Source of the DNA: Arthrobacter pigmenti
GTDB lineage: Bacteria; Actinomycetota; Actinomycetes; Actinomycetales; Micrococcaceae
DNA: 64,000 nucleotides
Reading direction: 5' to 3'
Assembly: GCF_011927905.1 (NCBI RefSeq)
Contig: NZ_JAATJL010000001.1
Location: 248,001-312,000, forward strand
Each line of letters starts with the position of its first letter. The stretch's first letter is position 1. The notes beneath the pieces were generated by a model. It was not told where the DNA came from and made no database searches. It saw only the letters and a program-made list of their open reading frames with translations. A program made the position numbers and the translations under genes. Below, piece by piece: positions 35,387-55,080 of the stretch.

Positions 35387-36226
35387 ATGAGTACCTCACC
35401 AAACCTGACGTTCAACGACGGCCGCATCATCCCCCAGCTCGGCTACGGCGTCTGGCAGGTCGACGACGCAACTGCGGAGGACGTCGTCGGGCGCGCTTTC
35501 AAAGCCGGCTACCGTCACATTGACACCGCCAAGATCTACGGCAATGAAGACGGCGTTGGGCGGGCTATCGCCTCCTCCGGTCTCGGCTACGACGAGCTGT
35601 TCATCACCACCAAACTGTGGAACGCCGACCAGGGCTATGAAAGCACCCTCGAGGCATTCGAAGGGTCCATGCAGCGTCTTGGCCTTGAGACCCTCGACCT
35701 GTACCTGATCCATTGGCTGCAGCCGAAGCAGGGCAAGTACGTTGACACGTGGAAGGCCCTCATCGAGTTGCAGAAGCGTGGCCGCGTGCGCTCCATCGGT
35801 GTCTCGAACTTCACGGTCGAGGCCCTGCAGGAGATCATCGACGAGACCGGCGTGGTGCCCGCGATCAACCAGGTGGAGACGCATCCGTACCTGAATCAGG
35901 CCGAGCTGCGCGCCTTCGAAACCGAGAAGGGAATCCTGCACGAATCCTGGTCGCCGCTTGGGTCCGGCAAGGGCCTCCTGGACGATCCCGTGCTCGCAGG
36001 CATTGCCGAGAAGCGCAACGCAACTCCCGCGCAGGTTGTCCTCGCCTGGCACCTGGCCCTCGGCAGCGTGGTCATTCCGAAGTCGGTGACCGAGTCCCGC
36101 ATCATCGAAAATTGGGGCGCGCTGGACGTTACCCTCACTGACGATGACATCGAGGCAATCAATGCCCTCGACAAGGGCGAAGTCGGCCGCATCGGCGCTA
36201 ACCCGGCAACGGCGGACTTCGCCTAA
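35387..36226 (+). CDS. Aldo/keto reductase (2,5-diketo-D-gluconate reductase type)
   Basis: A 279-residue NADPH-dependent reductase of the AKR superfamily. The catalytic tetrad is complete: Asp46 (GYRHIDTAKIYGNE), Tyr51, Lys76 (ITTKLWN) and His109 (LIHW). The NADPH region VVIPKSVTESRIIENW is near the C-terminus. It matches AKR5-type enzymes acting on keto-sugars, aldehydes or methylglyoxal; natural substrate not deducible. Start ATG 35387 after gaaagggatac. Followed by a hairpin and the convergent flagellar fliW. Confidence 0.95.
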   Translation: MSTSPNLTFNDGRIIPQLGYGVWQVDDATAEDVVGRAFKAGYRHIDTAKIYGNEDGVGRAIASSGLGYDELFITTKLWNADQGYESTLEAFEGSMQRLGLETLDLYLIHWLQPKQGKYVDTWKALIELQKRGRVRSIGVSNFTVEALQEIIDETGVVPAINQVETHPYLNQAELRAFETEKGILHESWSPLGSGKGLLDDPVLAGIAEKRNATPAQVVLAWHLALGSVVIPKSVTESRIIENWGALDVTLTDDDIEAINALDKGEVGRIGANPATADFA

Positions 36227-36249
36227 GCGAAACAACAACAAACGACGAC

Positions 36250-36281
36250 GGCGCCCCGGGGGCTCATTCCCGCGGGGCGCC
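36250..36281. terminator. Terminator-like hairpin between aldo/keto reductase and fliW
   Basis: GGCGCCCC (36250-36257) pairs with GGGGCGCC (36274-36281), with further G/C pairing inside. No T run, but it sits in the short gap between convergent genes. Confidence 0.55.
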
Positions 36282-36308
36282 TCGCGCGTTCTGGGCTTGA
36301 ACGTGAAC

Positions 36309-36680
36309 CTACGCAGCGAGTGGAGCCCGCATGGGCCACTGCCCGCCGTCGAGAATCACCTGCGTGGCCGCTCCCGTTGCGGGGTTGACCAGGATCGGCG
36401 CCATAAGGTTCACGGTTGTGCCGTCCCCACCCGGGTTCGCGACAACGAAAACGGTCGGTTCGTCGGCCTCCTCCAGACCCAGACCGGCACGATCCGCAAG
36501 CGGCACCGCAGGTTCGTAACCGGTGAAGTAGCGGGAAGCATCGAGCACGAACAGCCGCACGCCGGCCTGCTCCGTGGACTCAAGGGAGTACAGCCCTTCG
36601 GCGCCGTCAATGGCTCGAAGGCTGAAGTCCACCAGCGGTGCCAGCCCGGGCGGCGGAGATGTGAAGCGCAGGCCGCTCAT
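36309..36680 (-). CDS. fliW: Flagellar assembly factor FliW
   Basis: A 123-residue FliW: binds flagellin and, in other bacteria, antagonises the translational repressor CsrA. Family pattern visible in SLESTEQAGVRLFVLDASRYFTGYEP and ANPGGDGTTVNLMAPILVNPATGAATQVILD. Its ATG overlaps the flgL stop (last gene of the flgN-flgK-flgL-fliW leftward operon). No csrA gene is nearby, although csrA is often adjacent to fliW. Confidence 0.9.
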   Translation of the reverse strand: MSGLRFTSPPPGLAPLVDFSLRAIDGAEGLYSLESTEQAGVRLFVLDASRYFTGYEPAVPLADRAGLGLEEADEPTVFVVANPGGDGTTVNLMAPILVNPATGAATQVILDGGQWPMRAPLAA

Positions 36681-37552
36681 CGCAGGAAGTCCATGAGCGT
36701 TGGCTGCAGAACCCGCGCTGTCACAGCGAGCGCTGCCTGATACGAGGTTTCCTGAAGCTTCATGTCGAGGATGACCTGCGCCAGGTCAATGTCCTCGACG
36801 CCCGCGCGCTGCGCTTCAAGCGCGCCCAACTTCTCCACCGTGGCCTCCTGTGCCCCCAGTATGCGTCCGTGACGCGATCCAACCGACGTAACCTCCGCCC
36901 GGACGGCCGCAAGCCTGTCTTCCAGCGCGGTCAGGTGCGCGGAGACGCCGCCCCCGCTGCGCAGGTCCGCGGCAATCGTATCAAGCAGCGCAAACGCCGA
37001 AGCATCGCCCACACCGAACACCGTGGCCCCATCAGCATCCACCCGGACGGTGGTCCCGGCGTCGATCCGGCGCTCCACCGGCCCGGAGGCGTTGTAGGTG
37101 AGGTCCTCGTTGAAGGCGGTCCCGGCGTCGGAATTGCCGGCGAACACCGTACGTCCCTGGTACTGCGTATTGGCCAGGGAAAACAGCTCGGTCCGCAGCG
37201 ATTCGATTTCCACGGCCAGCGCTTCGCGGGCGGCGGGGGAGATTGAACCGTTGATGGCCCGCAGGGTCAGGTCGTGTGCGCGGCCGAGGACGTCGTTCGT
37301 GGATCCCAGGGTCGCGTCCAGCGTGGTGAGCCAGGCGTCGCCGTCGTCGATGTTCCGCGCGTACTGTTCGGTTGCCCGCAGGTCTGCACGGACGCGGAGG
37401 GAATCGGCCGCGGCGGCCGGATCATCGGAGGGGCGGTTGATCGCCTTGCGGCTGGATGCCTGGTCCTGCAGTTCGGCCAGGCGCGCGAGGTTGGCCTGCA
37501 GGTTCCGCTGGGCGGTCTGCGCCATGGTCTGGTTGGTTATGCGGCCGATCAT
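36677..37552 (-). CDS. flgL: Flagellar hook-associated protein FlgL (HAP3)
   Basis: A 291-residue junction protein linking hook-filament adaptor FlgK to flagellin. N-terminal flagellin-like D0 segment (MIGRITNQTMAQTAQRNLQANLARLAELQDQASSRKAINRPSDDPAAAADSL) and the C-terminal coiled coil (AQVILDMKLQETSYQAALAVTARVLQPTLMDFLR) are both intact. Two bases separate its start from the flgK stop. Exported by the flagellar type III apparatus, no cleavable signal. Confidence 0.95.
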   Translation of the reverse strand: MIGRITNQTMAQTAQRNLQANLARLAELQDQASSRKAINRPSDDPAAAADSLRVRADLRATEQYARNIDDGDAWLTTLDATLGSTNDVLGRAHDLTLRAINGSISPAAREALAVEIESLRTELFSLANTQYQGRTVFAGNSDAGTAFNEDLTYNASGPVERRIDAGTTVRVDADGATVFGVGDASAFALLDTIAADLRSGGGVSAHLTALEDRLAAVRAEVTSVGSRHGRILGAQEATVEKLGALEAQRAGVEDIDLAQVILDMKLQETSYQAALAVTARVLQPTLMDFLR

Positions 37553-37554
37553 CG

Positions 37555-38955
37555 CTACCTTCCTACAATTCCGGTTCGGTTGATCAGGGTGTCGAGCATC
37601 TGGTCCACGGCCGTCATCACGCGCGCCGCACCCTGGTATGCGTGCTGGAAGGTCAGCAGGTTCAGCTGCTCCTCGTCCATGCTCACCGCGGAGCCTGACA
37701 ACTGTCGTTCAACGGCCGACGACGCCGCCAGCCCGGCGAGCGTCGCCGCCTTCAGCGTGGTCTGGGTTTCAGAGCCCAGCTCAGTGACGAAAGCGGTCCA
37801 GGCGGAGTCGGGGGAGGCAGCACCGGCGCCGAGGCCCGCCACCGCGTCGGCGATGCTCCCGTCCAGCGCTCCCGCTCCCGGACTGGCCGCAGCGATGTCC
37901 TCCTCACCGCCCGGTACAACGCCCAGATTCAGCGCCGCCGGATCGCCGAAAACCGTGAAGAAGTCCAGCCCCGTGCGGCCGTCGGCAGTCGCTCCGGTCC
38001 GGTGGACGGCATTGACCTGGCTCGCAAGGTCCTGCGCAAACGTGTTGTAGAACCCCGCCGCCTCGGCGATGGCCCCCGTCGCCGCGAGCATGGTGAGGGC
38101 GCCTGCGATCTCGCCGCCGTCGAGCGCCGCCGGTACGCCGGGGCGGTGCGCCCATTCAACGCGCACGACGTCGGCCGCCGCACCTTCGAGTCCACGCGCA
38201 CCGGCCACTTGCAGCGGCCGTGCGGTGTCCCCGGACACCAGTGCATTCCCGCCGATCAGGACATCGATGGTGCCGTCCCCGGCATCCCGGACGGTGCCGC
38301 CGGCCAGTGACGCCACCGAGGCCGCAAGCTGTGCGCGCTGGTCGATCAGCTCGTTCGCGGAGGTGCCGGCCGCCGTCGTCGTGCGGATGGCGACGTTGAG
38401 TTCAGCGATGCGGACTGCGGCGCTGTTGACCTCGGCCACCATTGCCTCGGTGCTTCGGCGAAGTGAACCCCACTGGGCCTGCGTTTCGCGGTAACCGGTA
38501 GCGATCCGGTTGCTGAGCACTCCGGCGGCGTCGAGGACTACGGTGGCGGAAGATACTTTGCCGGTGTTGTTGGCGAGGTTCTGCCAGGAAGCCCAGAACT
38601 CGCCGAGCCCGGCGGAGATGCCGTTCTCGCCGGGTTCATTGAGCGTGGTCTCCAGGGCGGCGAGTGCCTCTGCCCGGGTCGTAGCAAACCCGGACGCCGC
38701 ACCGGTAACGCGTACCCGCGCGTCCAGGTGCGCGTCACCGAGCCGTGCAATCCCGTCGACGAAGACGCCCTGGCCCGGGCGGACCGGCCCGGAGAACATC
38801 CCCGCGCGCACCGCGTGGGCAGCTGACGTATCGACGCGCTGCCGGGTGTAGCCGTCGGTGTTGGCGTTCGCGATGTTCTGGCCGACGACGTCGAGCCCCC
38901 GGCTCGCCGCAACCAGTCCGGTGTAGGCGGTGTTGAGTCCACTGAACGTGCTCAT
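37555..38955 (-). CDS. flgK: Flagellar hook-associated protein FlgK (HAP1)
   Basis: A 466-residue rod/hook-family protein placed at the hook tip. N-terminus MSTFSGLNTAYTGLVAASRGLDVVGQNIANANTDGYTRQRV is the rod/hook signature; the C-terminus NLLTFQHAYQGAARVMTAVDQMLDTLINRTG carries the matching D0 helix. A little shorter than enteric FlgK (about 550), mainly in the central domains. Second gene of the flgN operon; overlaps the flgN stop by four bases. Confidence 0.96.
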   Translation of the reverse strand: MSTFSGLNTAYTGLVAASRGLDVVGQNIANANTDGYTRQRVDTSAAHAVRAGMFSGPVRPGQGVFVDGIARLGDAHLDARVRVTGAASGFATTRAEALAALETTLNEPGENGISAGLGEFWASWQNLANNTGKVSSATVVLDAAGVLSNRIATGYRETQAQWGSLRRSTEAMVAEVNSAAVRIAELNVAIRTTTAAGTSANELIDQRAQLAASVASLAGGTVRDAGDGTIDVLIGGNALVSGDTARPLQVAGARGLEGAAADVVRVEWAHRPGVPAALDGGEIAGALTMLAATGAIAEAAGFYNTFAQDLASQVNAVHRTGATADGRTGLDFFTVFGDPAALNLGVVPGGEEDIAAASPGAGALDGSIADAVAGLGAGAASPDSAWTAFVTELGSETQTTLKAATLAGLAASSAVERQLSGSAVSMDEEQLNLLTFQHAYQGAARVMTAVDQMLDTLINRTGIVGR

Positions 38956-39437
38956 AGGTCCCTATCCACGATGTGCGAGGTATCAGCCGGGGAGTCCGAC
39001 CGGCCGGACGACGTGTAGGTTCCGGCATCCGGGTTGAGCCCGGCGAGTGTCTCCTGGGTGGACCGTGCAGCGGCGCGCAGGTACTGCTGGTTCGCGTCTC
39101 GAAGTTCCTTGATCTCGGCGGTCAGCTCGGTCATTGCCTTGAGGTGCGATGCGAGAATCTCATCCCACGGACCGTTGGCGGCATGGGTTGTCAGCTCACG
39201 CAGTGTGGCGTCTTCTGAGGTGCCCCACTCCTTGGCCAGGGCGGAAACCTCAACAGTGCGGGCCAGGCCTGCGCTGCGTAGGCGTTCCAAAACCTGCTCA
39301 ACCTCGCGGGTGGCATGCTGCAGCCAGCGGGTGCGGCCGGCGGTCAGGAGCAGTTGCTCCTCCTCCAGCTTGAACACCAGCAACTCCAGTAGTTCACGTT
39401 CCTGCCACAGCAGGGCAGAGAGTTCGTGCGCTCCCAT
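38952..39437 (-). CDS. flgN: FlgN-like flagellar export chaperone
   Basis: A 161-residue, mostly helical protein at the head of the flgK-flgL-fliW operon. FlgN chaperones prevent premature assembly of FlgK and FlgL and guide them to the exporter. Long amphipathic helices (LLWQERELLELLVFKLEEEQLLLTAGRTRWLQHATREVEQVLERL) fit the family. I chose the ATG at 39437, which has aggaagg nine bases before it. A sigma-28-type promoter lies about 50 bases upstream. Confidence 0.85.
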   Translation of the reverse strand: MGAHELSALLWQERELLELLVFKLEEEQLLLTAGRTRWLQHATREVEQVLERLRSAGLARTVEVSALAKEWGTSEDATLRELTTHAANGPWDEILASHLKAMTELTAEIKELRDANQQYLRAAARSTQETLAGLNPDAGTYTSSGRSDSPADTSHIVDRDL

Positions 39438-39486
39438 CCCGGCCACCCTTCCTGTTCGGATGTGCCGAAAAGACAATCCGTTTTCA

Positions 39487-39513
39487 CTATCGGCATTGCA
39501 AAGCCCGGCGTTA
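39487..39513 (-). promoter_or_regulatory. Sigma-28 promoter of flgN-flgK-flgL-fliW
   Basis: On the minus strand: TAAC (-35), a 15-base spacer, then GCCGATAG (-10). The known sigma-28 (FliA) consensus is TAAA-N15-GCCGATAA. The -10 ends about 50 bases before flgN. The same arrangement precedes flagellin and flgB. Confidence 0.85.
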
Positions 39514-39653
39514 GTGATACGTTGCACCTAATGTCGCTTAGCAAATGCGGCGTCTTGGGGTAATTCTCGTACGATTCCTCAGGATTCGCACAGTTTTTGC
39601 ACCCGTTATGCGCCTGAAGCGGCTCTCGTACATATTCAGTTGGGGAACTGTTA

Positions 39654-40463
39654 ATGAATAAAGTTGAGCGTGACCAGATCGTTGTAAACAATCTGCCACT
39701 GGTCGGTTATCTGGTGTCCGAACTCTGCGCCAAGGCTACGCACCTCTCGCGTGATGACCTGGCATCGGTTGGTGCGCTCGCGCTGATCACCTCCGCCGAG
39801 TCATACGATCCCAGTCTAGGCGTGCCCTTCGGGGCCTATGCCAGGCGTCGCATCACCGGAGCTTTTGCCGATGAGCTGCGGTCCAACGACTGGGCCCCGC
39901 GTTCGGCCCGCAAGCGTATCCGGGAAGCCCTCGCTGTCCAGGAGACGCTGACCGGCGCACTGCTCCGCCCGCCCACCACGGACGAACTCGCCGCAGCCAT
40001 GGGCGTGGACCGCGCTACCGCGGACGCTGCACTCGCAGACGCGTCCCGCACGGTCAGCTCCCTCGATGACAACGTGGCGGACTTCATTGTCTCCCGCGAT
40101 GAGACCCCGGAAACCGCAACTCTCGCGGCAGAGCGAATCGCCTACCTGCGCGCCTCCGTTGCCTCGCTGCCGGAGAAGATGCGCTACATCATCGAGCAGA
40201 TCTATTTCGAGGACCGTTCTGTCAAGGACCTCGCCGAGGAACTGGGCTCAACCCACTCGGCCGTGTCGCAGCAGCGTTCCGAGGCCATCCGCCTGATGCA
40301 GGACGGCCTCGCCACCCACTACTCCGACGAGCCCGACGCCGCCTACACGCCGCAGTCCCGCGTCTCGCCGAACCGTCGTACGGCCTACCTGGCAACACTG
40401 GCGGACCAGACGATGGGCGGTATCACGCGCGCTGCCCGCCTGCTGGACCCGGCGGCGTCGTAA
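39654..40463 (+). CDS. fliA: Flagellar sigma factor FliA (sigma-28)
   Basis: A 269-residue sigma factor of the FliA/WhiG class with regions 2, 3 and 4 but no region 1. Region 2 includes LPLVGYLVSEL...LSRDDLASVGALALITSAESYDPSLGVPFGAYARRRITGAFADELRSNDW; region 3 about 85-125 (LLRPPTTDELAAAMGVDRATADAAL); region 4 about 165-220 (LPEKMRYIIEQIYFEDRSVKDLAEELGSTHSAVSQQRSEAI). It is placed between two operons carrying its predicted promoters. No flgM anti-sigma gene is recognisable nearby. ATG start with a weak gggga site. Confidence 0.93.
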   Translation: MNKVERDQIVVNNLPLVGYLVSELCAKATHLSRDDLASVGALALITSAESYDPSLGVPFGAYARRRITGAFADELRSNDWAPRSARKRIREALAVQETLTGALLRPPTTDELAAAMGVDRATADAALADASRTVSSLDDNVADFIVSRDETPETATLAAERIAYLRASVASLPEKMRYIIEQIYFEDRSVKDLAEELGSTHSAVSQQRSEAIRLMQDGLATHYSDEPDAAYTPQSRVSPNRRTAYLATLADQTMGGITRAARLLDPAAS

Positions 40464-40481
40464 TAAATCCTCCCGGGTTGC

Positions 40482-40508
40482 TAACGGCCAGGCTCCTTCG
40501 TCCGATAG
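40482..40508 (+). promoter_or_regulatory. Sigma-28 promoter of flagellin
   Basis: TAAC (40482-40485), 15-base spacer, TCCGATAG (40501-40508): matches the FliA consensus TAAA-N15-GCCGATAA at 9 of 12 fixed positions with exact spacing. It begins 19 bases after the fliA stop and leaves an untranslated leader of about 55 bases before flagellin. Confidence 0.85.
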
Positions 40509-40570
40509 CTCTTCTGTGCAGGCCCATGGATGGGCCAGTGAATTAGACCCACTCACGGAGGAGTATCACA

Positions 40571-41746
40571 ATGGGTTTCCAGATCAACACCAACGTGTCG
40601 GCCATGAATGCCTACCGCAATCTGTCCAACACGCAGAACGACATGTCCAAGTCCCTGGAGAAGCTTTCCAGCGGTCTTCGGATCAACCGCGCAGCGGATG
40701 ACGCCGCCGGCCTGGCCCTCGCTGAAGGTCTGCGTTCGCAGGTCAACGGCCTGGGCGTTGCAGCCCGTAACGCACAGGACGGCATCGGAGTCATCCAGAC
40801 CGCTGAAGGTGCGCTGAGTGAAACACATGCCATTCTGCAGCGTATGCGTGACCTCGCGGTTCAGGCGGGCAACGACTCGAACAATGAGGAGTCGCGTGCA
40901 GCGATCAGCACGGAGGTTGCGGGCCTGGCCGCTGAGCTGGACCGCATGGCGAAGACCACCAACTTCAACGGCAACCAGCTGCTCAATGGTTCCACCACCA
41001 GCATGGCGTTCCAGGTTGGTGCCGAAGGCAACGTTAACAACCAGATCACCATCAACCTGGGCTCGGCCAACGTGCAGGCCGTTGCAAATACCCTCACCGG
41101 TGGTGACCTGACCACTACGGGCACAAGCTTCGCGATCGCTGACGTCGCTGATCTTGCTGGTCCTGCTTCGTTTACAACGTCGAAGGACGGCGTGGCGACA
41201 ACCGTCACCACCGGTGCCCTGGGTGCCGCAGCGTCCTTCGATAGCGTCGAGGATTACGCTGCCGCACTGCGGGAGGATGCTGCATTTGCTGCAAACTTCA
41301 GCGTCGCAGTTGAGACTGACGCAAACGGAGCCGGAGTTGGCATCGTGGTGACCGCGCTCAATGGCGGGACGCTGACGACTGCTGACAACGCCACCGCTGG
41401 AGCGGGCCTCGGTGCCGGGGCTGAAGGAACTTCGGTCACCGGAGGGCTCAACTTTGACAATGCCGCCAACGCACAGGCGTCCATTGAAATGATTGATGAG
41501 CAAATCAAGACAATCTCCACCGCCCGCGCTGAGCTCGGTGCTGTGCAGAACCGGTTCGAGTCGACGATCAACTCGCTCAACGTCTCGGCTGAGAACCTGT
41601 CCGCTGCAGAGTCCCGCATCCGCGACACCGACATGGCAAAGGAGATGTCCAACTTCACCCGGTCAAGCATCCTTTCCCAGGCCGGTACCGCAATGCTGGC
41701 GCAGGCCAACCAGATGAACCAGGGTGTCCTTCAGCTCCTCGGCTAA
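40571..41746 (+). CDS. fliC: Flagellin
   Basis: The 391-residue filament protein. N-terminal D0/D1 (MGFQINTNVSAMNAYRNLSNTQNDMSKSLEKLSSGLRINRAADDAAGLALAEGLRSQ) and C-terminal D1/D0 (ESTINSLNVSAENLSAAESRIRDTDMAKEMSNFTRSSILSQAGTAMLAQANQMNQGVLQLLG) are well conserved. The middle, about 180-290, is an Ala/Thr/Asp-rich variable region exposed on the filament. RBS ggagg sits nine bases upstream of the ATG. Expressed from the sigma-28 promoter above; a long stem-loop follows. Confidence 0.97.
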   Translation: MGFQINTNVSAMNAYRNLSNTQNDMSKSLEKLSSGLRINRAADDAAGLALAEGLRSQVNGLGVAARNAQDGIGVIQTAEGALSETHAILQRMRDLAVQAGNDSNNEESRAAISTEVAGLAAELDRMAKTTNFNGNQLLNGSTTSMAFQVGAEGNVNNQITINLGSANVQAVANTLTGGDLTTTGTSFAIADVADLAGPASFTTSKDGVATTVTTGALGAAASFDSVEDYAAALREDAAFAANFSVAVETDANGAGVGIVVTALNGGTLTTADNATAGAGLGAGAEGTSVTGGLNFDNAANAQASIEMIDEQIKTISTARAELGAVQNRFESTINSLNVSAENLSAAESRIRDTDMAKEMSNFTRSSILSQAGTAMLAQANQMNQGVLQLLG

Positions 41747-41778
41747 ATCTCTGTCACGAGACAAGATTTCCGCTTGAA

Positions 41779-41853
41779 CTGAAGGTAAAACTGTCTGGCG
41801 GCACGGGAAACTGACTTGGACCTCACACCCTGTGCCGTCAGGCATACCTTCAG
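41779..41853 (+). terminator. Long stem-loop between flagellin and fliD
   Basis: Nested arms: CTGAAGGTA (41779-41787) with TACCTTCAG (41845-41853) outside, CTGGCGGCAC (41795-41804) with GTGCCGTCAG (41832-41841) inside (one mismatch in each 10). No T run. It may partially terminate flagellin transcripts, or stabilise the abundant flagellin mRNA, lowering expression of fliD and fliS. Confidence 0.5.
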
Positions 41854-41913
41854 CACCTCACCTGACCAACCTGTTCTTACCCATCCTGACCGCTGAACCG
41901 AAAGGAGCCGGAC

Positions 41914-43302
41914 ATGGCCTTCTCCATTGACGGCATCGCCAGCGGACTCGACACGACCACCATGATCAACCAGCTCATGCAGCTGGAAGCCCGCCCGCAG
42001 ACCCTCATCAAGAACAAGGTCAGCGCTACGGAGGTTCTGATCTCCGGGCTGCAACAGCTCAACACCAGGCTTGCATCGCTCGGTGAGCTGGCCGGGAAGA
42101 CCGCGAAGCCCGACGCACTGAGCCTTTACACGGCCAGCACAAACTCCGAGGACCTCACCGCCAAAGCCTCCAGCACCGCACGCGCAGGTTCCCTCGACTT
42201 CACCGTCGACCGTCTGGCACAGCGCCAGGTTTCCGTCACTGCGGCCATGACCACATGGCCGGGTAACCCCGCCACCCTCACCATTACCGCGTCTGACGGC
42301 ACCGCCACCGAGGTATCCCCAGCCTCGGCGTCGCTCGATGACATCGTCACCGCAATCAACGATTCCGAATCCGGTGTCACCGCACTGAAGGTTTCCGCCG
42401 GGACGGACCCCACTACCGGCGAACCTCTCTTCCGGCTGCAGCTCAGCGCAGCTGAATCCGGCGTAGACGGAGCCTTCACCGTCCACCGCGGATCGGCCGC
42501 GGATGTCACGGCCGGCACAGCCACAGACCTGCTCGCCGAGCCGGGCGCCGCACATGTCCGTACTGCTCAGGACGCCCAGGTGACCCTCTGGGCGGGAACG
42601 GCGGCAGCGCAGGCCGTGACGTCGTCGTCGAACACGTTCAGCTCACTGCTGCCCGGTGTCGATGTAACCGCCAAGGCAGTTTCCACGGAACCCGTGACGG
42701 TGACGGTAGCCCGGGATGAGGCCGCGTCCCAAAGGGTGGCCAGGGACCTTGTGTCCGGCCTTACCGGCGTGCTGTCCTTCATTTCGGCCAACTCCACCGT
42801 CACACCATCAGCGCCCGGTGAGGATGCTGCCGCCGGCGGCGTTTTCACCAGCGACAGCGCCGTGCGGGATGTTGAGCGCCGCATTCTTGACGCCGCAACA
42901 GGACCGGTGGACGGGCGGTCGCCTTCTGAAATTGGAATCAGCATCACCCGTGACGGCTCCGTTGAATTCGACGCCGAAAAGTTTGACCAGGCAATGGCTG
43001 AGGACCCTGCACGAGTGGCTCATGTGCTGCAGACCATCGCGGGGCGCGTCGCTGAATCGGCGACCGAGCAGTCCGACAAGTTCGACGGCAGTCTTACCCT
43101 CCGCATCCAGAGTCAGGAGCGCAGTGTCGGCAATCTGAATGACGAGATTCTCGACTGGGACCGTCGACTCGAAACGCGCCGGGCCACGTTAGAAAGGACC
43201 TGGTCGTCGCTCGAAGTGCAGTTGCAATCCCTGCAATCCCAAGGCGAATGGCTTTCCTCACAACTGGGCAACCTGCCGACCATAGGAGGCAATGACAAAT
43301 GA
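41914..43302 (+). CDS. fliD: Flagellar filament cap FliD (HAP2)
   Basis: A 462-residue filament cap promoting flagellin assembly. N-terminus MAFSIDGIASGLDTTTMINQLMQLEARPQTLIKNKV is diagnostic; the C-terminal coiled coil (LTLRIQSQERSVGNLNDEILDWDRRLETRRATLERTWSSLEVQLQSLQSQGEWLSSQL) matches the family. Strong RBS aaaggag seven bases upstream. Its stop overlaps the fliS start (ATGA). A sequence before the start vaguely resembling a sigma-28 element is the ribosome site itself. Confidence 0.95.
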   Translation: MAFSIDGIASGLDTTTMINQLMQLEARPQTLIKNKVSATEVLISGLQQLNTRLASLGELAGKTAKPDALSLYTASTNSEDLTAKASSTARAGSLDFTVDRLAQRQVSVTAAMTTWPGNPATLTITASDGTATEVSPASASLDDIVTAINDSESGVTALKVSAGTDPTTGEPLFRLQLSAAESGVDGAFTVHRGSAADVTAGTATDLLAEPGAAHVRTAQDAQVTLWAGTAAAQAVTSSSNTFSSLLPGVDVTAKAVSTEPVTVTVARDEAASQRVARDLVSGLTGVLSFISANSTVTPSAPGEDAAAGGVFTSDSAVRDVERRILDAATGPVDGRSPSEIGISITRDGSVEFDAEKFDQAMAEDPARVAHVLQTIAGRVAESATEQSDKFDGSLTLRIQSQERSVGNLNDEILDWDRRLETRRATLERTWSSLEVQLQSLQSQGEWLSSQLGNLPTIGGNDK

Positions 43303-43739
43303 CCCTGACCTACGGCAGCTCGGCGCTGCGTTCCTCGGCCGCTAACGAATACGCGCGAAACTCCGTTCTCTCGGCCAGCCCGGTCCGTCTCCTGACCATG
43401 CTCTATGACCGGCTCATGCTCGATCTGGCACGTGCAGCGGCTGCGCAGGAGAAGGGCGAGTGGGCGGAAGCGTCGGAGCAGCTGCTGCACGCACAGGCGA
43501 TCCTCGGTGAACTGACCGCGTCACTGAAGACCGACGAGTGGGACGGCGCAGAGGGGTTGAAGTCCCTGTACGCCTACGTCATGACTGCGCTGATCCAGGC
43601 CAACATCGGCCGCAGCATAGACCGCACCCGTGAATGCGTGGAACTCCTCGAACCCATCCGGACCGCGTGGCACGAAGCCGCGGAGTCCCTGCCCGCACAA
43701 CCCGCGACGACCGGGACCGGGACCCTTGGAGTCGGTTGA
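43299..43739 (+). CDS. fliS: Flagellin export chaperone FliS
   Basis: A 146-residue helical chaperone binding the C-terminus of flagellin to stop it polymerising in the cytosol. Pattern NEYARNSVLSASPVRLLTMLYDRLMLDLARAAAAQEKGEWAEASEQLLHAQAILGELTASLKTDEWDGAEGLKSLYAYVMTALIQANI is characteristic. Coupled to fliD by ATGA overlap. A further small gene overlaps its end. Confidence 0.95.
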   Translation: MTLTYGSSALRSSAANEYARNSVLSASPVRLLTMLYDRLMLDLARAAAAQEKGEWAEASEQLLHAQAILGELTASLKTDEWDGAEGLKSLYAYVMTALIQANIGRSIDRTRECVELLEPIRTAWHEAAESLPAQPATTGTGTLGVG

Positions 43740-44031
43740 GCGCTGGGCCGCCATTCTGGATGAGCTCGAGGCCGCAGCGCTTGCTGCCGGGACCGTTGCG
43801 CCGTCGTCGTCGGGCCTTGATTGGTCTGCTCCGGCAACCTTCGGACCGATTCCGTTCGGATTGATCGGCCGTGCGCGGTATGTACGGGAACTGCAGGTGG
43901 AGGCCGAGAACCGGCTCCGGGCCTCCCTGACCTCGGCCCGCGCCCAGGCAGACCTGCTCGGCGCCGTCAACGCTGCGGCGGGGCGCACCGGTTCCGCGAA
44001 ACGGTCAGCGTACCTGGACGTCTCCGCCTGA
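43726..44031 (+). CDS. Small flagellar-locus protein, FliT-like position
   Basis: A 101-residue soluble helical protein beginning at TTG 43726, overlapping fliS by 14 bases. Sequence SVERWAAILDELEAAALAAGT... and YVRELQVEAENRLRASLTSARAQADLLGAVNAA shows amphipathic helices but no clear family signature. FliT chaperones often follow fliS, so a FliT-like role is a reasonable guess from position. The TTG start is uncertain; no alternative ATG or GTG lies in the plausible window. Confidence 0.6.
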   Translation: MESVERWAAILDELEAAALAAGTVAPSSSGLDWSAPATFGPIPFGLIGRARYVRELQVEAENRLRASLTSARAQADLLGAVNAAAGRTGSAKRSAYLDVSA

Positions 44032-44082
44032 TACTGCGCCACCCCATTGCAAGAACGCTTCATGGAAGTTGCAGCGAACAAC

Positions 44083-44109
44083 TAACGCATCCCGAAACCC
44101 GTCCGATAG
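44083..44109 (+). promoter_or_regulatory. Sigma-28 promoter of flgB rod/hook operon
   Basis: TAAC (44083-44086), 15-base spacer, TCCGATAG (44102-44109), identical in both boxes to the flagellin promoter. It sits in the 158-base gap before flgB and is about 80 bases from the start codon. In many bacteria rod/hook genes are not sigma-28 dependent, so this is notable. Confidence 0.82.
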
Positions 44110-44189
44110 GGAATTCTGAGCACGGATCGCTCGTCCCAGGGCCATGGATCGGCCGCACGCACCTGTCGGTATGAAGGGGTTGTTCTGCT

Positions 44190-44531
44190 GTGTTTGAATC
44201 CGTGACGACCATGGCGCTGACCAGCGCACTCGATGCGCTGTCGCTGCGACAACGCGCCATCGCGAACAACATCGCCAATGTGAACACGCCCGGATTCCAG
44301 GCGCAGCGAGTCAGTTTCGAAGACGTCCTCGCCCGATCGGTAGCCAACGGGGACGGCGTCGTGAAAGCGTCCATGGACCGTTCCCTCGAACCCACGCGGC
44401 TCAACGGCAGCAACGTAAATCTCGACACCGAGACCCTCTCCAATATCGACACGGTCCTGCGCTACCAGTTCGCGGCCCGGGCGGTAGAGGGCACTTTCAG
44501 CAGCGTGCGCACAGCGATGAGGACAACCTGA
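44190..44531 (+). CDS. flgB: Flagellar basal-body rod protein FlgB
   Basis: A 113-residue proximal rod subunit, a little shorter than the usual 130-140. The rod signature is clear: LTSALDALSLRQRAIANNIANVNTPGFQAQRVSFEDVL. C-terminal D0 helix: LSNIDTVLRYQFAARAVEGTFSSVRTAMRT. GTG start with aagggg about 10 bases upstream. First gene of the long basal-body/hook operon; overlaps flgC by one base. Confidence 0.93.
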   Translation: MFESVTTMALTSALDALSLRQRAIANNIANVNTPGFQAQRVSFEDVLARSVANGDGVVKASMDRSLEPTRLNGSNVNLDTETLSNIDTVLRYQFAARAVEGTFSSVRTAMRTT

Positions 44532-44923
44532 TGACCTTCGACGCAATCGGCATTGCCGGAACCGGGTTGACAGTCCACCGCAAGTGGCTCGACGCCGTCG
44601 CGGACAACCTGGCCAACGCCAACAACGCGACAGCGACCGACGGCGCCGCATTCCAGGAACGCTTTGTCCTCGCCCAGGAGGGGGAGGGTACGAGCGGGGT
44701 GTACGTTGCAGGCGCCGAGTTCGGCGACGAGGAAGGCCGGCTCGTGCACCAGCCGGACCACCCCCTAGCGGACGAGGACGGTTACGTCCGCTACCCGGAC
44801 ATCGACATGTCAGCCCAGATGGGTTACCTGATCATGGCGCAGCGCGGCTACCAGGCGAACGCCGCCGTCGTCGACCGCGCCAAAACCACCTACGAAGCCG
44901 CACTGCAGATTGGACGCAACTAA
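44531..44923 (+). CDS. flgC: Flagellar basal-body rod protein FlgC
   Basis: A 130-residue rod subunit. N-terminus MTFDAIGIAGTGLTVHRKWLDAVADNLANANNATATDGAAFQ and C-terminus YLIMAQRGYQANAAVVDRAKTTYEAALQIGRN are typical of FlgC. Coupled to flgB through TGATG overlap. Confidence 0.95.
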   Translation: MTFDAIGIAGTGLTVHRKWLDAVADNLANANNATATDGAAFQERFVLAQEGEGTSGVYVAGAEFGDEEGRLVHQPDHPLADEDGYVRYPDIDMSAQMGYLIMAQRGYQANAAVVDRAKTTYEAALQIGRN

Positions 44924-44924
44924 T

Positions 44925-45218
44925 ATGCCCATCGAAGCCGTCCAGGCAGTAAGCGCAACCGGGTACCTTCCGCAGGTCCAGCGGCCTCAGGGCACGGACG
45001 AAGGTTTCGCCACCGCGCTGACGGGCGCAGTCGACAATCTGGTGTCGCTGCAGTCGGCGTCGAACGAGCTGTCTGTTCAGGCCGTCACCGGAAACCTCTC
45101 GGACATCCACAACGCGACCCTCGCTTCCACCCGTGCCCAGGTCACCCTTGAACTCGTAGCCGCGGTCCGCAACAAGGGCGTTGACGCGTTCAACGAGATC
45201 ATGAGGATGCAGGCCTGA
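44925..45218 (+). CDS. fliE: Flagellar hook-basal body protein FliE
   Basis: A 97-residue adaptor joining the MS ring (FliF) to the rod. C-terminal helix NATLASTRAQVTLELVAAVRNKGVDAFNEIMRMQA is the conserved part. ATG at 44925, one base after the flgC stop. Its stop overlaps the fliF ATG. Confidence 0.93.
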   Translation: MPIEAVQAVSATGYLPQVQRPQGTDEGFATALTGAVDNLVSLQSASNELSVQAVTGNLSDIHNATLASTRAQVTLELVAAVRNKGVDAFNEIMRMQA

Positions 45219-46822
45219 TGCCCCGGGCCATGAACTCCGCCTTCGCGCGGCTGGGCACAACCGTACGCGGCTTCACCGTTGCGCAGCGGACCATTGCGCT
45301 GATCGGTATCGCGGTGCTGGTGCTCGGTACCGCGGCCCTCGTCACGTGGGCCAGCAAGCCGGCGTTCAGCCCGCTGTACTCGGGGCTGGGTGGTGAGGAC
45401 GCCAGCGCGATCGTCGAGCAGTTGCAAACCGACGGCGTTCCCTACGAACTGGCCGACGGCGGTGCCACCATCCTGGTTCCCGAAGCCCAGGTGTACGACC
45501 AGCGGCTCAAGTCCGCGGCCGCCGGCCTGCCGAGCGCTTCAACAGGCGGTTACAGTCTCCTGGACGACATGGGCGTGACGTCCTCGGAGTTCCAGCAGTC
45601 CACCACGTATAAGCGCGCGCTCGAGGGTGAGCTGGCGGCGACGGTATCAGCGCTCGACGGCGTCAAGACCGCAACCGTCCGGCTGGCCATTCCGGAGGAA
45701 ACGGTCTTCGTGTCCGAGGAGGGCGAGCCCACGGCATCGGTCTTCATCGAGACCGATGCCGGTGTCACGCTGACCACCGAGCAGGTCCAGGCCGTCACCC
45801 ATCTCACCAGCGCCTCGATCGACGGCATGGATCCGGCAAACGTGGCGGTGATCGATTCAGAAGGCAACGTCCTCTCGGCCGTGGGTGTTGGCGCTGCGGG
45901 ATCGGCGGATCAGCAGGCCTCCGACTACGAGACCCGCATCACCGCCTCCGTGCAGTCGATGCTGGACCGCGTGGTTGGGCCGGGCAATGCGACAGTCGCC
46001 GTCGCGGCCGACATGAACTACGAATCCGCCGAGCGCGTCGAGGAAACCTTCACCACCCCCGAGGACGCTCCGGCGCTCAACGAGTCAACCACCACCGAAG
46101 AGTACGAGGGTGCCGGCGGCCCGGGCGCGGGAGTGCTTGGGCCGGACAACATCGCCGTACCGGAGGGCGGGGCCGGGCAGGGAACGTTCTCCTCCGAGGA
46201 AACCACGCGGAACAACGCGGTTAACAAGGTCACCGAATCCCGGATCATTCCAGCGGGTGACATCACGCGTCAGACAGTGTCAGTGGCTATTGACGACGCC
46301 GCAGCGGCAGGCCTCAACGTCGCCGACCTCACCGCGCTGGTTGCCAGCGCGGCCGGGATCAACGCCGACCGCGGAGACGAGGTCACCGTTGAGCTGGTCC
46401 CGTTCAACACGGCCGGCGCCGCAGAAGCGGCCGAAGCCCTCGCGGCAGCGGAGGAGGCCCGGCAGGCGGAGCAGCGGGCGCAACTGCTGCAGACCGGGAT
46501 GATCGTGCTTGGGGTGCTGATTGTCCTGATTATCGGGCTGATCATCTACGCCCGGCGTTCCCGCCGCCAGCGCCGCGAGCCGTTGGACCTCGGGGAACTG
46601 CAGGAAGTGCATCCCGCGCTCGGCGGCGGGGGAGCAGCCGCGGCCCTCCCGGCTCCCGAACCGGCGACCACGGCAATCAGCTCCATGCCCCTGGCCGGAA
46701 TCGAAGCACCGGAGACGGACATCAACCGCAAGCGGGCGGATATTGAGGCGATGGCCCAGCGGGATCCGGCCAAGACGGCGGAATACCTGCGCAGCCTCAT
46801 GGATGACAGGCAGCCGGTATGA
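45218..46822 (+). CDS. fliF: Flagellar MS-ring protein FliF
   Basis: A 534-residue membrane ring protein. First helix about 27-46 (IALIGIAVLVLGTAALVTWA), ring-building motifs (SPLYSGLGGEDASAIVEQL, GYSLLDDMGVTSSEFQQSTTYKRALEGELAATVSALDGVKTATVRLAIPEE), and a second helix about 427-445 (GMIVLGVLIVLIIGLIIYA) before a cytoplasmic tail that binds FliG. The C-terminal tail ends ...KTAEYLRSLMDD, the FliG-binding helix. Overlaps fliG by 4 bases. Confidence 0.95.
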   Translation: MPRAMNSAFARLGTTVRGFTVAQRTIALIGIAVLVLGTAALVTWASKPAFSPLYSGLGGEDASAIVEQLQTDGVPYELADGGATILVPEAQVYDQRLKSAAAGLPSASTGGYSLLDDMGVTSSEFQQSTTYKRALEGELAATVSALDGVKTATVRLAIPEETVFVSEEGEPTASVFIETDAGVTLTTEQVQAVTHLTSASIDGMDPANVAVIDSEGNVLSAVGVGAAGSADQQASDYETRITASVQSMLDRVVGPGNATVAVAADMNYESAERVEETFTTPEDAPALNESTTTEEYEGAGGPGAGVLGPDNIAVPEGGAGQGTFSSEETTRNNAVNKVTESRIIPAGDITRQTVSVAIDDAAAAGLNVADLTALVASAAGINADRGDEVTVELVPFNTAGAAEAAEALAAAEEARQAEQRAQLLQTGMIVLGVLIVLIIGLIIYARRSRRQRREPLDLGELQEVHPALGGGGAAAALPAPEPATTAISSMPLAGIEAPETDINRKRADIEAMAQRDPAKTAEYLRSLMDDRQPV

Positions 46823-47919
46823 CCGAGCAGCTGACCGCGGGGCCGCAAGCCAAAGCGCAGCAGGGTGGTGCCCAACAGCCTGGTGCGCCGCAGCCTGGAG
46901 CACAGCTCAACAAAGCACAGCTGACCGGAACGCAGAAGGCCGCCATGGTACTGATGCAGATGGACCAGGAGCGTGCTTCGGAAGTCCTCAAGCAGTTCAG
47001 CGATTCCGAGGCCGAGGAGATCGCGGCGGAAATCGTCCGCCTTAGACGTGTTGACGCTGCTGTTGCCGAGCAGGCACTCACCGAATTTCATGAGCTCACG
47101 GTGAGCGGCCGTCGTCGTCCTCGTGGCGGGCGCGAGGTGGCAATCGGTCTCCTCGAATCGTCCTTCGGGGCGGAGCGCGCAGCCGGGGTGATGGACCGGC
47201 TTGCATCCTCCATGGCTGGGAAGTCCTTCGAGTTCCTTGAGTCGGTGGAGCCTGCGCAGGTTGAAACGCTGCTCGGGGGCGAACTGCCGCAGACCATTGC
47301 GCTGGTGTTGGCGCATCTGCGGCCGGAGCATGCCTCAGCGGTGTTGGCGGGGCTGGATCATCCGCTGCGGACCGATGTCGCGCAGTGCATCGCGACCATG
47401 GGTTCGGCAACACCGGAAGCTGTCAGCGTGGTCGCCGAGAACCTGAAGGTGCGCGCCGGGGCCGTGGCGTCGCCGCATCAGTCCTCCGCAGTGATCGGTG
47501 GGATCCAGCCGCTGGTGGACATCATCAACCGGTCCGATGTCGCGACCGAGCGAGCGTTGCTCGACAGCCTCGAACAGCGCGACCCGGACCTCGCCGAAGA
47601 GGTTCGCGCCCGGATGCTCACCTTCGCCGACATCGTGAACCTGGAACGGCGCGACATTCAGTTGGTGCTGCGCGGAATCGACGCCGCTGTGCTGGCACTG
47701 GCGATGAAGGGGGCCTCGGAGGCGGTGACGGAGATGATCCGCACCAACGTCTCCGAACGCAACCGGGAACTGCTCGACGACGAAATCAGCGCGGCAGGGC
47801 CGGTCCGAGTCTCCCAGGTGGAGGAGGCCCGCGCCGAGGTGGTGCGCGCAATCCGGGATCTGGAGGCGCAGGGCACCATCACCATCCAGCGCAGCGAGGA
47901 GGACGAGTATGTCTACTGA
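46819..47919 (+). CDS. fliG: Flagellar motor switch protein FliG
   Basis: A 366-residue C-ring protein transmitting torque from the stator. After a Gln/Ala-rich leader (1-35) come FliG-N (LTGTQKAAMVLMQMDQERASEVLKQFSDSEAEEIAAEI), FliG-M (LLGGELPQTIALVLAHLRPEHASAVLAGL, with the EHPQ-like region altered) and the torque domain FliG-C (VRARMLTFADIVNLERRDIQLVLRGIDAAVLALAMKGASEAVTEMIRTNVSERNRELLDDEI), whose charged residues match the family. ATGA overlap with fliF; its last bases overlap fliH. Confidence 0.95.
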   Translation: MTEQLTAGPQAKAQQGGAQQPGAPQPGAQLNKAQLTGTQKAAMVLMQMDQERASEVLKQFSDSEAEEIAAEIVRLRRVDAAVAEQALTEFHELTVSGRRRPRGGREVAIGLLESSFGAERAAGVMDRLASSMAGKSFEFLESVEPAQVETLLGGELPQTIALVLAHLRPEHASAVLAGLDHPLRTDVAQCIATMGSATPEAVSVVAENLKVRAGAVASPHQSSAVIGGIQPLVDIINRSDVATERALLDSLEQRDPDLAEEVRARMLTFADIVNLERRDIQLVLRGIDAAVLALAMKGASEAVTEMIRTNVSERNRELLDDEISAAGPVRVSQVEEARAEVVRAIRDLEAQGTITIQRSEEDEYVY

Positions 47920-48580
47920 CTTCGCTCACGCCTCATACCCCGTTCTCGCCAGCCCGGACGCGAACAAGGTCCGCGAGGCCGGCGTCGCGAAGGGGCACGC
48001 GGCCGGGTATGCGGAGGGCATGCGCGCCGCACAGGCTGAACTGGCCCAGCGCCGGATGGTCCTTGAGACTGAATTTCAGGCGATGAACGACGACGCCGCC
48101 CGCCGGCTCGAGCGCGTATTGGTCACCCTGGGCGCGGCCACCCATGCGTTGAACGGGCGCCTCGCGGCGTCGTCGGCGGCGTCCATGAACGCGCTGGCGG
48201 CGGCGGCATTCGAACTGGCTGAGGCGATCATCGGCGTCGAACTCGAGCGGGGTAGCACAGCACCGCGGGCTGCCGTGAGCCGCGCCCTCTCGGGGGTGGA
48301 TACCGGTGCCGCGTTGAGGGTTCGCTTGAACCCGCTGGATCTTGCCGAGCTTTCCGGGGTGGAGCATCCCGCCGGTGTCGAACTGGTGCCGGATGTGTCG
48401 CTGGCCCGCGGGGACGCCATGACCGAGACGAACGAGAACTACCTCGACGCGCGGATCGGCACCGCGCTGCAGCGGGCAAAGGAAGCGCTCCTCGGGAACT
48501 TTCGTGCAGCTGAGGCGGCTTCGCCGTCGTGGAACTCGCCAGAGGTGCACGAAAGTTCTGGAAACGGAGCGCGCTGGTGA
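47909..48580 (+). CDS. fliH: Flagellar export ATPase regulator FliH
   Basis: A 223-residue protein that binds and inhibits FliI and couples it to the C-ring. Its N-terminus has glycine-containing repeats (AGVAKGHAAGYAEGMRAAQAEL), the GxxxG hallmark of FliH, then a helical central region and a C-terminal domain (GVELVPDVSLARGDAMTETNENYLDARIGTALQRAKEALLG). Overlaps fliG by 11 bases and fliI by the GTGA junction. Confidence 0.9.
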   Translation: MSTDFAHASYPVLASPDANKVREAGVAKGHAAGYAEGMRAAQAELAQRRMVLETEFQAMNDDAARRLERVLVTLGAATHALNGRLAASSAASMNALAAAAFELAEAIIGVELERGSTAPRAAVSRALSGVDTGAALRVRLNPLDLAELSGVEHPAGVELVPDVSLARGDAMTETNENYLDARIGTALQRAKEALLGNFRAAEAASPSWNSPEVHESSGNGARW

Positions 48581-49959
48581 GAACAGTGTTTGCTGAACGG
48601 CTCCCTGAACGCCTCCCTGAACAACTCCCGGAAGGGCTCGCAGAGCGGCTCGGCGCCGCGAAGGCTGCGGCGGCGCCCGAGCGGCTTGGCATGGTGCAGT
48701 CAATTGTGGGGCTGGGGGTCGACGCCGTCGGGCTGGATGCCGCGATCGGAGACCTGGTGACGGTGGGCGGTGCCGCCGGTGTCCCGGCCGAAGTGGTCGC
48801 GACGTCGCGGACGGGTGTGCGCTGCATGCCCCTTGGATCGCTCACGGGCATCCGTGCCGGGACGCCAGTTCGTGCCACAGGCAAGCGCTTCACCGTGCCA
48901 ACCGGACGCGGCCTGCTGGGGCGGGTGCTGAACGGCATGGGCGAGCCGATCGACGGGAAAGGGCCGCTCACAGGAGGCACCGGCGTCGGGCTTGGCGCTG
49001 TCCCGCTCGACAATGTCTCGCCGCCGGCACTCCAGCGCACGCGCATCACCGAACCGCTCCAGCTGGGCGTGCGGGCGATGGACACTCTGACCACGGTCGG
49101 GAAGGGTCAGCGCATGGGTCTGTTCGCGGGATCCGGTGTGGGGAAGTCGTCGCTGCTGTCGATGATTGCCCGCGGTACGGATGCCGCCGTTTCGGTGATT
49201 GCGCTGGTGGGGGAGCGCGGCCGCGAGGTGCGAGAGTTTCTCGAGGACGATCTCGGCGCGGAGGGCCTCGCCCGTTCGATCGTGGTGGTGTCCACGTCGG
49301 ACGAGCCCGCGCTGATGCGGATGCGCGCCGCGTTCGTGGCCACACGCATCGCCGAATCGTTCCGCGACGAAGGCAGAGACGTCATGCTGATGATGGATTC
49401 GCTCACCCGGGTTGCGATGGCGCAGCGCGAGATTGGCCTGTCCGTCGGGGAGCCGCCCGCAACCCGTGGGTACCCGCCGTCGACGTTTTCGCTGCTCGCC
49501 CAGTTGTTGGAGCGCGCGGGTACCGGCGCCACCGGATCTGTAACCGGCATCTATACGGTGCTGGTGGACGGCGATGACCACAACGAGCCAATTGCCGACA
49601 CCGCCCGCTCCATCCTCGACGGTCACGTGGTGCTGGACCGTGTGCTCGCCGTCGCTGGCCATTTCCCCTCAATCGATCCGCTCGCTTCCGTGTCCCGGGT
49701 GGCCTCCCGGGTGACTTCGCCTGAGCAGGCCAAAACGGCGTCGGCGTTGCGCAAAATGCTCGCCGCGCGGCGCAAGGCGCAGGACCTGATCGACGTCGGG
49801 GCGTACCAGAAAGGCACCAACCGCCTGGTCGATGCCGCCCTGGAGCACGAGGACGCGATCAATTCATTCCTCCAGCAGGGCATGGCTGAGCAGAGCCCCT
49901 CCGTGCAGTCCTGGGACCGCCTCAACCGAGTCGTTGCGAACAGCGGGGTGTTGCAGTGA
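48577..49959 (+). CDS. fliI: Flagellum-specific ATP synthase-like FliI
   Basis: The 460-residue export ATPase driving type III secretion of flagellar subunits, an F1-beta homologue. Walker A GSGVGKSS (about 185-192), Walker B VMLMMDSLTRVAMAQREIGL, arginine-finger and signature PPATRGYPPSTFSLLAQLLERAG. I chose GTG 48577, which overlaps the FliH stop as GTGA and has acggag upstream. The N-terminal repeats ERLPERLPEQLPEGLAERL are unusual. Confidence 0.95.
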   Translation: MRTVFAERLPERLPEQLPEGLAERLGAAKAAAAPERLGMVQSIVGLGVDAVGLDAAIGDLVTVGGAAGVPAEVVATSRTGVRCMPLGSLTGIRAGTPVRATGKRFTVPTGRGLLGRVLNGMGEPIDGKGPLTGGTGVGLGAVPLDNVSPPALQRTRITEPLQLGVRAMDTLTTVGKGQRMGLFAGSGVGKSSLLSMIARGTDAAVSVIALVGERGREVREFLEDDLGAEGLARSIVVVSTSDEPALMRMRAAFVATRIAESFRDEGRDVMLMMDSLTRVAMAQREIGLSVGEPPATRGYPPSTFSLLAQLLERAGTGATGSVTGIYTVLVDGDDHNEPIADTARSILDGHVVLDRVLAVAGHFPSIDPLASVSRVASRVTSPEQAKTASALRKMLAARRKAQDLIDVGAYQKGTNRLVDAALEHEDAINSFLQQGMAEQSPSVQSWDRLNRVVANSGVLQ

Positions 49960-52778: not shown

Positions 52779-52793
52779 CGAAAGGAAACTCCC

Positions 52794-53237: not shown

Positions 53238-53260
53238 CCTCGCTCCGAAAGGCGTTCCTC

Positions 53261-54436: not shown

Positions 54437-54606
54437 CTACGCCGTCTACGGCATTACCGTTCAGTAACGTTCGGGCGTTGGGGGCTCTCCAGGGCTGACG
54501 AAGTGAGCCGCAGACGTAAGGCTGAAGGAACTTAAGCCGTCGATTGCTTGTGCGCCGGGACGAATGGGGGCGTCAGCATCGGCCCAATTGCGGGGAATCG
54601 GAGTAA

Positions 54607-55032: not shown

Positions 55033-55080
55033 CGCTTGTCGTACTGACGCGTGGGTATGAGTAGAAATAGGGGAAATTTC

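Follow-up and report, generated by a model that had tools for sequence, protein, structure and literature searches.

The consensus of promoters read by sigma factors of the sigma-28 class (FliA/SigD/WhiG) is TAAA / GCCGATAA, and in Actinoplanes the flagellar genes are served by WhiG-like sigma factors (PMC8325347). At the level of RNA, free CsrA blocks flagellin translation in the hag system of Bacillus, CsrA protects the flhDC leader of E. coli against RNase E, and paired CsrA sites commonly lie 10-63 nt apart (PMC7652899). For actinobacteria, the 2008 genome paper on Kineococcus radiotolerans noted that csrA neighbours the flagellar genes and that the Shine-Dalgarno sequence of flagellin bears a CsrA site like that of hag. 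It found no FlgM in any flagellated actinobacterium sequenced by that time and posed the regulation of FliA as a question (PMC2587704). In a published survey FlgM was missing from later actinobacterial classes (PMC10746217). Here we analysed the flagellar locus of Arthrobacter pigmenti in a window of 64,000 nucleotides (positions 248001-312000 of the one-contig 3.79-Mb genome, NZ_JAATJL010000001.1). From sequence comparison we consider it likely that one FliA-type sigma factor serves all flagellar units of this locus and that their order is set after transcription by CsrA and FliW.

The promoters of the locus resemble known sigma-28 promoters in their two-box layout and the CCGAT core. However, the -35 box is CTAAC and the -10 box ends in G (sister families have CTTAC and GCCGAGAG, the rest of the class mostly CTCA), and the promoters also stand before the rod/hook and the switch/export operons. 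With the CsrA-FliW-flagellin switch of Bacillus subtilis (hag) and Campylobacter (flaA) the locus shares csrA, fliW and a flagellin leader with two GGA motifs, one of them over the Shine-Dalgarno sequence, but there is additionally a 5'-terminal double hairpin on the flgB operon, FlgM was not found and a single sigma factor would serve all units. Both the flhDC leader of E. coli and the flgB leader carry two CsrA-type sites at the 5' end; flhDC encodes a master regulator, whereas any effect of the putative flgB sites would fall on a structural operon. The absence of FlgM, the position of csrA by the flagellar genes and a suggested CsrA site on flagellin were already noted in 2008 and are not new, whereas the flgB element, a shared early/late promoter and a leaderless fliM are not named in the accessible text of the Kineococcus paper. 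A literature search by titles and the beginnings of abstracts, which left subscription papers mostly uncovered, found no CsrA-type sites before flgB in actinobacteria. The analysis contributes a double CsrA-type element, 5'-terminal on the message of a structural operon, and a concrete, testable answer to the question of 2008, namely how flagellar assembly is ordered and FliA controlled without FlgM (PMC2587704).

Sigma-28-type promoters and the FliA-type sigma factor

A preliminary description of the window, made from its letters, had named three matching promoters. All three are exact matches to TAAC-N15-KCCGATAG where it had placed them: TAACGCCGGGCTTTGCAATGCCGATAG before the flgN-flgK-flgL-fliW unit (39487-39513, minus strand), and one site each before fliC-fliD-fliS (40482-40508, plus strand) and the flgB to flgE operon (44083-44109, plus strand). 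The 15-base spacer is that of sigma-28 promoters in general, as the description also gave it. It was right, too, that among the three sites only the first base of the -10 box varies and that the last base of each box departs from the TAAA/GCCGATAA consensus. The three exact matches in the window compare with 0.0075 expected from 400 dinucleotide shuffles, 397 of which contained no exact match and 3 of which contained one. The whole genome holds four exact matches (∼0.44 expected, scaled from the window shuffles) and all four precede flagellar operons, those of flgN, fliC, flgB and fliM. The fourth lies at C1:314364-314390, 2.4 kb beyond the window end, before fliM. A weaker site with two mismatches, TTAC-N15-TCCGACAG, stands before flbD-motA-motB (60700-60726, plus strand). 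Loosening the pattern only reached the background: allowing one mismatch gave 18 matches in the genome in all (14 one-mismatch matches, one of them inside the window at 54857-54883, minus strand) compared to 40 for the reversed pattern, and with up to three mismatches the window gave 49 compared to 44.5 expected. We therefore claim no regulon beyond the flagellum.

The genome-wide scan that the preliminary description had proposed bore it out. Across the 12 family genomes that encode FliA, the strict pattern CTWAC-N16-CCGATAR matched 39 times and its reversed control once. In 20 genomes of the family that lack a FliA match it matched 5 times, compared to 16 for the control, which is chance level. 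By position 36 of the 39 fall in a flagellar cluster, and the remaining ones lie on G300:C4, G319:C3 and G141:C44. With a TAAA-like -35 box, a 15-base spacer and a -10 box like GCCGATAA, placed before motility genes and rare elsewhere, the sites look like sigma-28 promoters. Expectation maximisation (EM) on the upstream regions of the family, run unprimed after the leaders were trimmed, returned CTAACg-N13-tGCCGATAG, that is CTAACG-N13-TGCCGATAG. In a scored scan, which discarded 41 of 206 rows for scores under the cut-off, a site was present in 16/16 family rows for flgB, 17/18 for fliC, 6/7 for flbD and 15/20 for flgN; the spacer had 15 bases in 44 of these 54 sites and 16 bases in the other 10. 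Of the flgN rows without a site, four seem to represent a second flgN-like gene that neighbours a fliA gene outside the cluster. For flgB the EM listing contained a convincing site in 15/16 rows, with none for G041, in contrast to the 16/16 of the scored scan. Thus the early operons of flgB (rod, hook and basal body) and fliM (switch and export) carry the site just as the late flgN and fliC operons do, as the preliminary description had said of the rod/hook operon, and the arrangement is conserved in the family.

The gene for the sigma factor itself (39654-40463, plus strand; 269 aa) lies divergent from flgN. Its best model was FliA_WhiG (TIGR02479, E 1.5e-37), with 129.5 bits below the curated cut-off of 189.6. 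Pfam detected sigma regions 2 and 4 and did not detect region 3, and the best solved relative, the FliA structure 6pmi, aligned over residues 15-218. The nearest named FliA relatives come from Arthrobacter and an uncultured member of the Micrococcaceae. As this genome contains only one FliA-like gene at E ≤ 1e-20 and the same promoter precedes early and late operons, these very probably share one FliA-type sigma factor.

Several side observations concern fliA. A stretch conserved in the family upstream of the gene, tTaGTG.TA..TT.cctcag (window 39500-39540), overlaps the -35 box of flgN and is perhaps a fliA promoter or operator. A CRP-like palindrome, TGTGA-N6-TCACA, was seen in the gap between flgN and fliA of 13 loci from families f8, f9 and f3 (L155, L157-L159, L163, L164, L166-L170, L173 and L177), where fliA may be switched on through it; two f1 loci had only GTGA-N6-TCAC, and this window had a version with three mismatches. 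In the relatives L134, L136, L140-L143 and L149 (also in L029, L030 and L032) fliA stands apart from the main flagellar cluster, in some cases with a second flgN-like gene alongside. The contig L030 is labelled Vibrio cholerae strain 35D and encodes a FliA that is 64% identical to the one described here and close to those of Arthrobacter; mislabelling or contamination of this record is therefore probable.

The preliminary description had treated TAAC as a local consensus. It does differ from TAAA as noted, but it is the form of a clade and not private to this genome. The -35 pentamer was CT[A/T]AC or [AG]TTAC in 103/103 scored sites of three families (f1, f13 and f19). The other families had C at the third base of the pentamer in 54/62 scored sites, this base itself being unscored in the scan, and in 19 flgB promoters from other orders the -35 box was read by eye as CTCA. 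The flagellar genes of Actinoplanes missouriensis reportedly have a CTCA-type consensus as well. The helix of region 4.2 reads HSA, HAA or PSA in the TAAC/TTAC families compared to xSR in the other families and in 6pmi, which suggests that the recognition helix of FliA and the -35 box have changed together. The two splits follow one and the same split of the tree, however, and hence do not give independent proof of co-change. Moreover 6pmi, which we take to be the FliA of E. coli, has an SR helix although the E. coli consensus is TAAA. The two forms are a natural pair of sigma factor and promoter variants for studying -35 recognition.

For fliM the position of the promoter also bears on the start of the message. 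In 12/12 FliA-bearing family genomes the strand of csrA carries a strict site 8.1-8.9 kb upstream of this gene. We read 11 of these genomes, and in all of them the site stands before fliM and an in-frame GTG follows after a gap of exactly 8 bases behind the -10 box. In one set of nine loci, eight gave a fliM site; the ninth, L149, ends short of the site and was read from L266 instead. In E. coli, transcripts start ∼7 bases after the -10 box, and at this distance the fliM message is probably leaderless.

Putative CsrA sites on the fliC and flgB leaders

The first EM run on the upstream regions of fliC and flgB returned leader sequence instead of promoters, and this is how the hairpins came to light. 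We searched the 120 nt before each start for an ANGGA loop on a stem of at least 4. Such hairpins were present in 59/60 flgB leaders (1.2 expected from shuffling; tandem in 51) and 58/72 fliC leaders (1.4 expected). None were found above chance for flgN (1/60; 1.7 expected), fliM (0/15; 0.3) and flbD (0/14; 0.2), and fliA had 3/72 (1.7). Both features of CsrA-binding leaders, GGA in a hairpin loop and often two sites 10-63 nt apart, are present here. Rfam returned nothing convincing over window positions 36000-46000, with one match at E 2.3.

In the fliC leader of the window the hairpin GGCCC-AUGGAU-GGGCC (40521-40536, plus strand) is a putative CsrA site, and ACGGAGG over the Shine-Dalgarno sequence (40555-40561, plus strand) is a putative second one; A.GGAGG occurs near the start in 51/72 fliC leaders. 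In alignment A2, which holds 55 of 56 hairpins, 83.9% of the stem cells were paired compared to 64.6% in shuffled and 27-50% in slid controls. Since three pairs were required for picking, a fair test comes from the outer pairs alone. The covariation score was 0.427 compared to 0.119 for the shuffles, none of which (0/500) scored as high, so the stem varies freely while its pairing is kept. A long stem between the 5' end and the Shine-Dalgarno sequence of the window leader seemed absent from L022, the sole relative inspected for it by eye, and we make no claim for it.

The flgB leader carries two hairpins, GAGC-ACGGAUC-GCUC (44118-44132, plus strand) and GGCC-AUGGAUC-GGCC (44140-44154, plus strand), both putative CsrA sites. 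Hairpin 1 begins 8 bases after the -10 box in this genome and 7-9 bases after it in 48/52 flgB leaders with a recognised first hairpin, which places it at the predicted 5' end of the message; 4 leaders had no -10 box by the rule used and in 8 further leaders hairpin 1 was not recognised. In other orders the gap was 7-8 bases in 16/19 leaders. In the leaders used, the two GGA motifs are 20-26 nt apart, and in most loci the second lies ∼36-52 nt before the start, clear of the Shine-Dalgarno sequence. The GGA of the loops is invariant and G-U pairs are present in the stems. In alignment A1 (42 leaders) 90.2% of the cells were paired and the slid controls reached 27-37%. The 42 leaders derive from 50, of which 4 had no pair; L176, L181, L190 and L137 (identical to L027) were omitted from the 46 picked, and the coordinates of L135 and L150 were corrected by hand. 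Alignment A3 (52 rows) combines 34 of these with 18 of 19 leaders from outside the order, and gave 89.5% paired cells compared to 86.7% shuffled and 22-36% slid; the 8 dropped rows include L145, L166 and L171, whose pairing was out of register, and dropping them favours the count. Its covariation score was 0.100 compared to 0.058 for the shuffles (0/500 as high). In this wider set the second stem showed a compensatory change from GC to CG in 6/51 rows and was unpaired in 11.

The only match in this genome to a covariance model of the flgB element at E ≤ 1 was the flgB leader itself. Within the order the model matched at E ≤ 0.001 in 30/38 FliA-bearing genomes, and it located the element immediately upstream of flgB in 8 genomes that had contributed no flgB leader to its construction. 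Outside the order the flgB element was found in 19/36 FliA-bearing genomes. A phylum-wide search with few flagellates in the sample matched 8/396 genomes, strongly only this genome and one relative. As a side observation, G260 contains two extra tandem-hairpin copies (L217:1675-1722 and 11429-11477), near fliP and between fliI and fliG.

The protein that would bind these sites accompanies FliA in all genomes searched. Profile searches covered 60 of 130 FliA-bearing genomes, mainly those with the stronger FliA matches, and recovered CsrA in 60/60 and FliW in 59/60. FlgM was above the cut-off in 0/60, with two weak matches in other genomes. CsrA was found in 0/20 family genomes without a FliA match, a control drawn from 266 genomes without such a match. 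The CsrA of this genome retains L4 and R44, which a review describes as critical for RNA binding (PMC7652899). Thus both genes of a CsrA-FliW partner switch are present here, whereas the gene for an FlgM-controlled sigma-28 checkpoint was not found.

Proposed ordering of flagellar synthesis and its alternatives

With a shared sigma factor, one tier of transcriptional control falls away. The preliminary description had concluded from this that early and late genes may share one sigma factor instead of a temporal hierarchy, and the same promoter before all units and the undetected FlgM would fit a flagellum with no hierarchy at all. However, csrA and fliW are present and CsrA-type hairpins occur on the fliC and flgB messages only, which points to an ordering after transcription. 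We regard the complete absence of hierarchy as very improbable, and the earlier conclusion is probably wrong on this point.

In the ordering that we propose, the FliA-type sigma factor would transcribe five units, flgN-flgK-flgL-fliW, fliC-fliD-fliS, flgB to flgE, flbD-motA-motB and the unit beginning with fliM, and without FlgM the order of synthesis would be set post-transcriptionally. Early on, flagellin would be unable to leave the cell and would hold FliW, with CsrA free. Free CsrA on the leader hairpin and the Shine-Dalgarno sequence of fliC would block flagellin translation, and the flgB message would be clamped by a CsrA dimer across the two hairpins at its extreme 5' end. Since the flgB hairpins are clear of the Shine-Dalgarno sequence, it is somewhat more likely that CsrA protects the flgB message during hook building, as described for flhDC, than that it represses it. 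After completion of the hook, flagellin would be exported, FliW would remove CsrA, fliC would be translated and the flgB message would lose its clamp. The fliM unit would be read from its probably leaderless message without CsrA-type sites. Sigma use, transcript starts, CsrA binding and the direction of the effect on flgB are all inferred here. More tentatively, the flagellated Actinomycetes as a whole may have moved the timing from transcription to RNA, with one sigma factor and no FlgM, with CsrA-FliW blocking flagellin and acting oppositely on the rod/hook operon via the 5' double hairpin, and with sigma factor and -35 box having diverged together (xSR to HSA/HAA/PSA; CTCA to CT[A/T]AC). 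If this were true, a single protein, CsrA, would time the early phase as well as the late one.

CsrA on the flgB leader might instead repress or destabilise the rod/hook message, so that unfinished flagella, in which flagellin is retained, FliW titrated and CsrA free, stop new basal bodies from being started; this would be a control of number or resources and no timer. CsrA is often a repressor (PMC7652899), and as the loop on flgB is the same as on fliC, free CsrA would hit both messages together. On the other hand, the second GGA is not over the Shine-Dalgarno sequence in most loci and hairpin 1 sits at the predicted 5' end, like in the stabilised flhDC message (PMC7652899). We consider this repression less likely than not. 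That the repeats are no CsrA sites and merely a message-stabilising 5' stem-loop or a DNA operator seems improbable. The near-invariance of the stems (GAGC/GCTC; GGCC/GGCC within the order) might suit an operator, but the invariant GGA lies in a loop that is not palindromic, fliC has the same loop on freely changing stems and G-U pairs occur in flgB. Furthermore CsrA accompanies FliA in 60/60 genomes and is absent from the 20/20 FliA-negative relatives. The early operons might also have main-sigma promoters not seen here, with the sigma-28 site only a booster. We think this unlikely, as both the 5' hairpin of flgB and the GTG of fliM lie at a near-fixed 8 bases from the sigma-28 -10 box, for which a start at the sigma-28 site is the simplest explanation.

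Several results weigh against an ordering by CsrA with protection of flgB and against the leaderless fliM. Repression of flgB would fit the CsrA-type sites equally well. The enrichment of flgB with CsrA in C. jejuni was just 1.6-fold, and deletion of csrA there changed the levels of FlaG, FlaB and FlgI little (PMC4894983). By the rule used, 14/72 fliC leaders have no hairpin. Covariation in A1 was modest (27/500 shuffles reached the score) because the stems are so conserved, and in A3 two of five measures were not above the shuffles (both-side changes: 110/500; further pair types: 393/500). The flgB leader of the window folds worse than most shuffles (z +1.45; 187/200 at least as good) and hairpin 2 is absent from its minimum-energy fold. 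The remaining 8 of the 38 order genomes matched the covariance model more weakly than E 0.001, 17/36 class genomes had no model match at flgB, and 4/23 matches at E ≤ 0.05 lay elsewhere. A near-perfect double hairpin in G303 (L263:1909-1957, minus strand, E 1.4e-6) had no flagellar gene recognised nearby by the queries used, and is possibly another CsrA target. For fliM, each gene has further in-frame start codons downstream of the GTG.

Gene order of the locus and neighbouring features

On the minus strand Pfam identified flgN (38952-39437; FlgN) and flgK and flgL (36677-38955; FlgK_D1 for flgK, Flagellin_N for flgL, which is also named by position). Directly after flgL, as the last gene of the flgN operon, lies fliW (36309-36680, minus strand; Pfam FliW, E 1.7e-20), a member of the CsrA antagonist family. 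The plus strand carries the sigma factor gene, fliC, fliD and fliS (40571-43739), the operon from flgB to flgE for rod, MS ring, switch, export ATPase and hook (44190-54436), and flbD, motA and motB (60777-62701), all by Pfam. Within the operon flgB, flgC, fliF, fliG, fliI, fliK and flgE were assigned by Pfam and the remaining genes by position; the names fliE, fliP and flhB rest on position. Pfam also identified fliM and flhA past the window end, where flhA is followed by one additional gene and then csrA. The flagellar gene order of the window is common among relatives.

No MCPsignal (chemoreceptor) domain was found in 12/12 FliA-bearing family genomes, which would have motors without taxis. 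The check for mcp genes behind promoter matches that the preliminary description had proposed therefore has no object in these genomes; 14/69 flagellated actinobacteria were reported to be without any chemosensory system (PMC10746217). An NlpC/P60 cell-wall hydrolase gene (50368-51093) lies within the flgB operon upstream of fliK and possibly opens the peptidoglycan for the rod. Between flgE and flbD the window contains ∼6.3 kb (54437-60776) with a DUF222/HNH gene, an AraC-type regulator and small open reading frames. The two genes are adjacent in L218-L220 and ∼1-3 kb apart in L221, L226 and L227, and the 6.3-kb segment may be an insertion.

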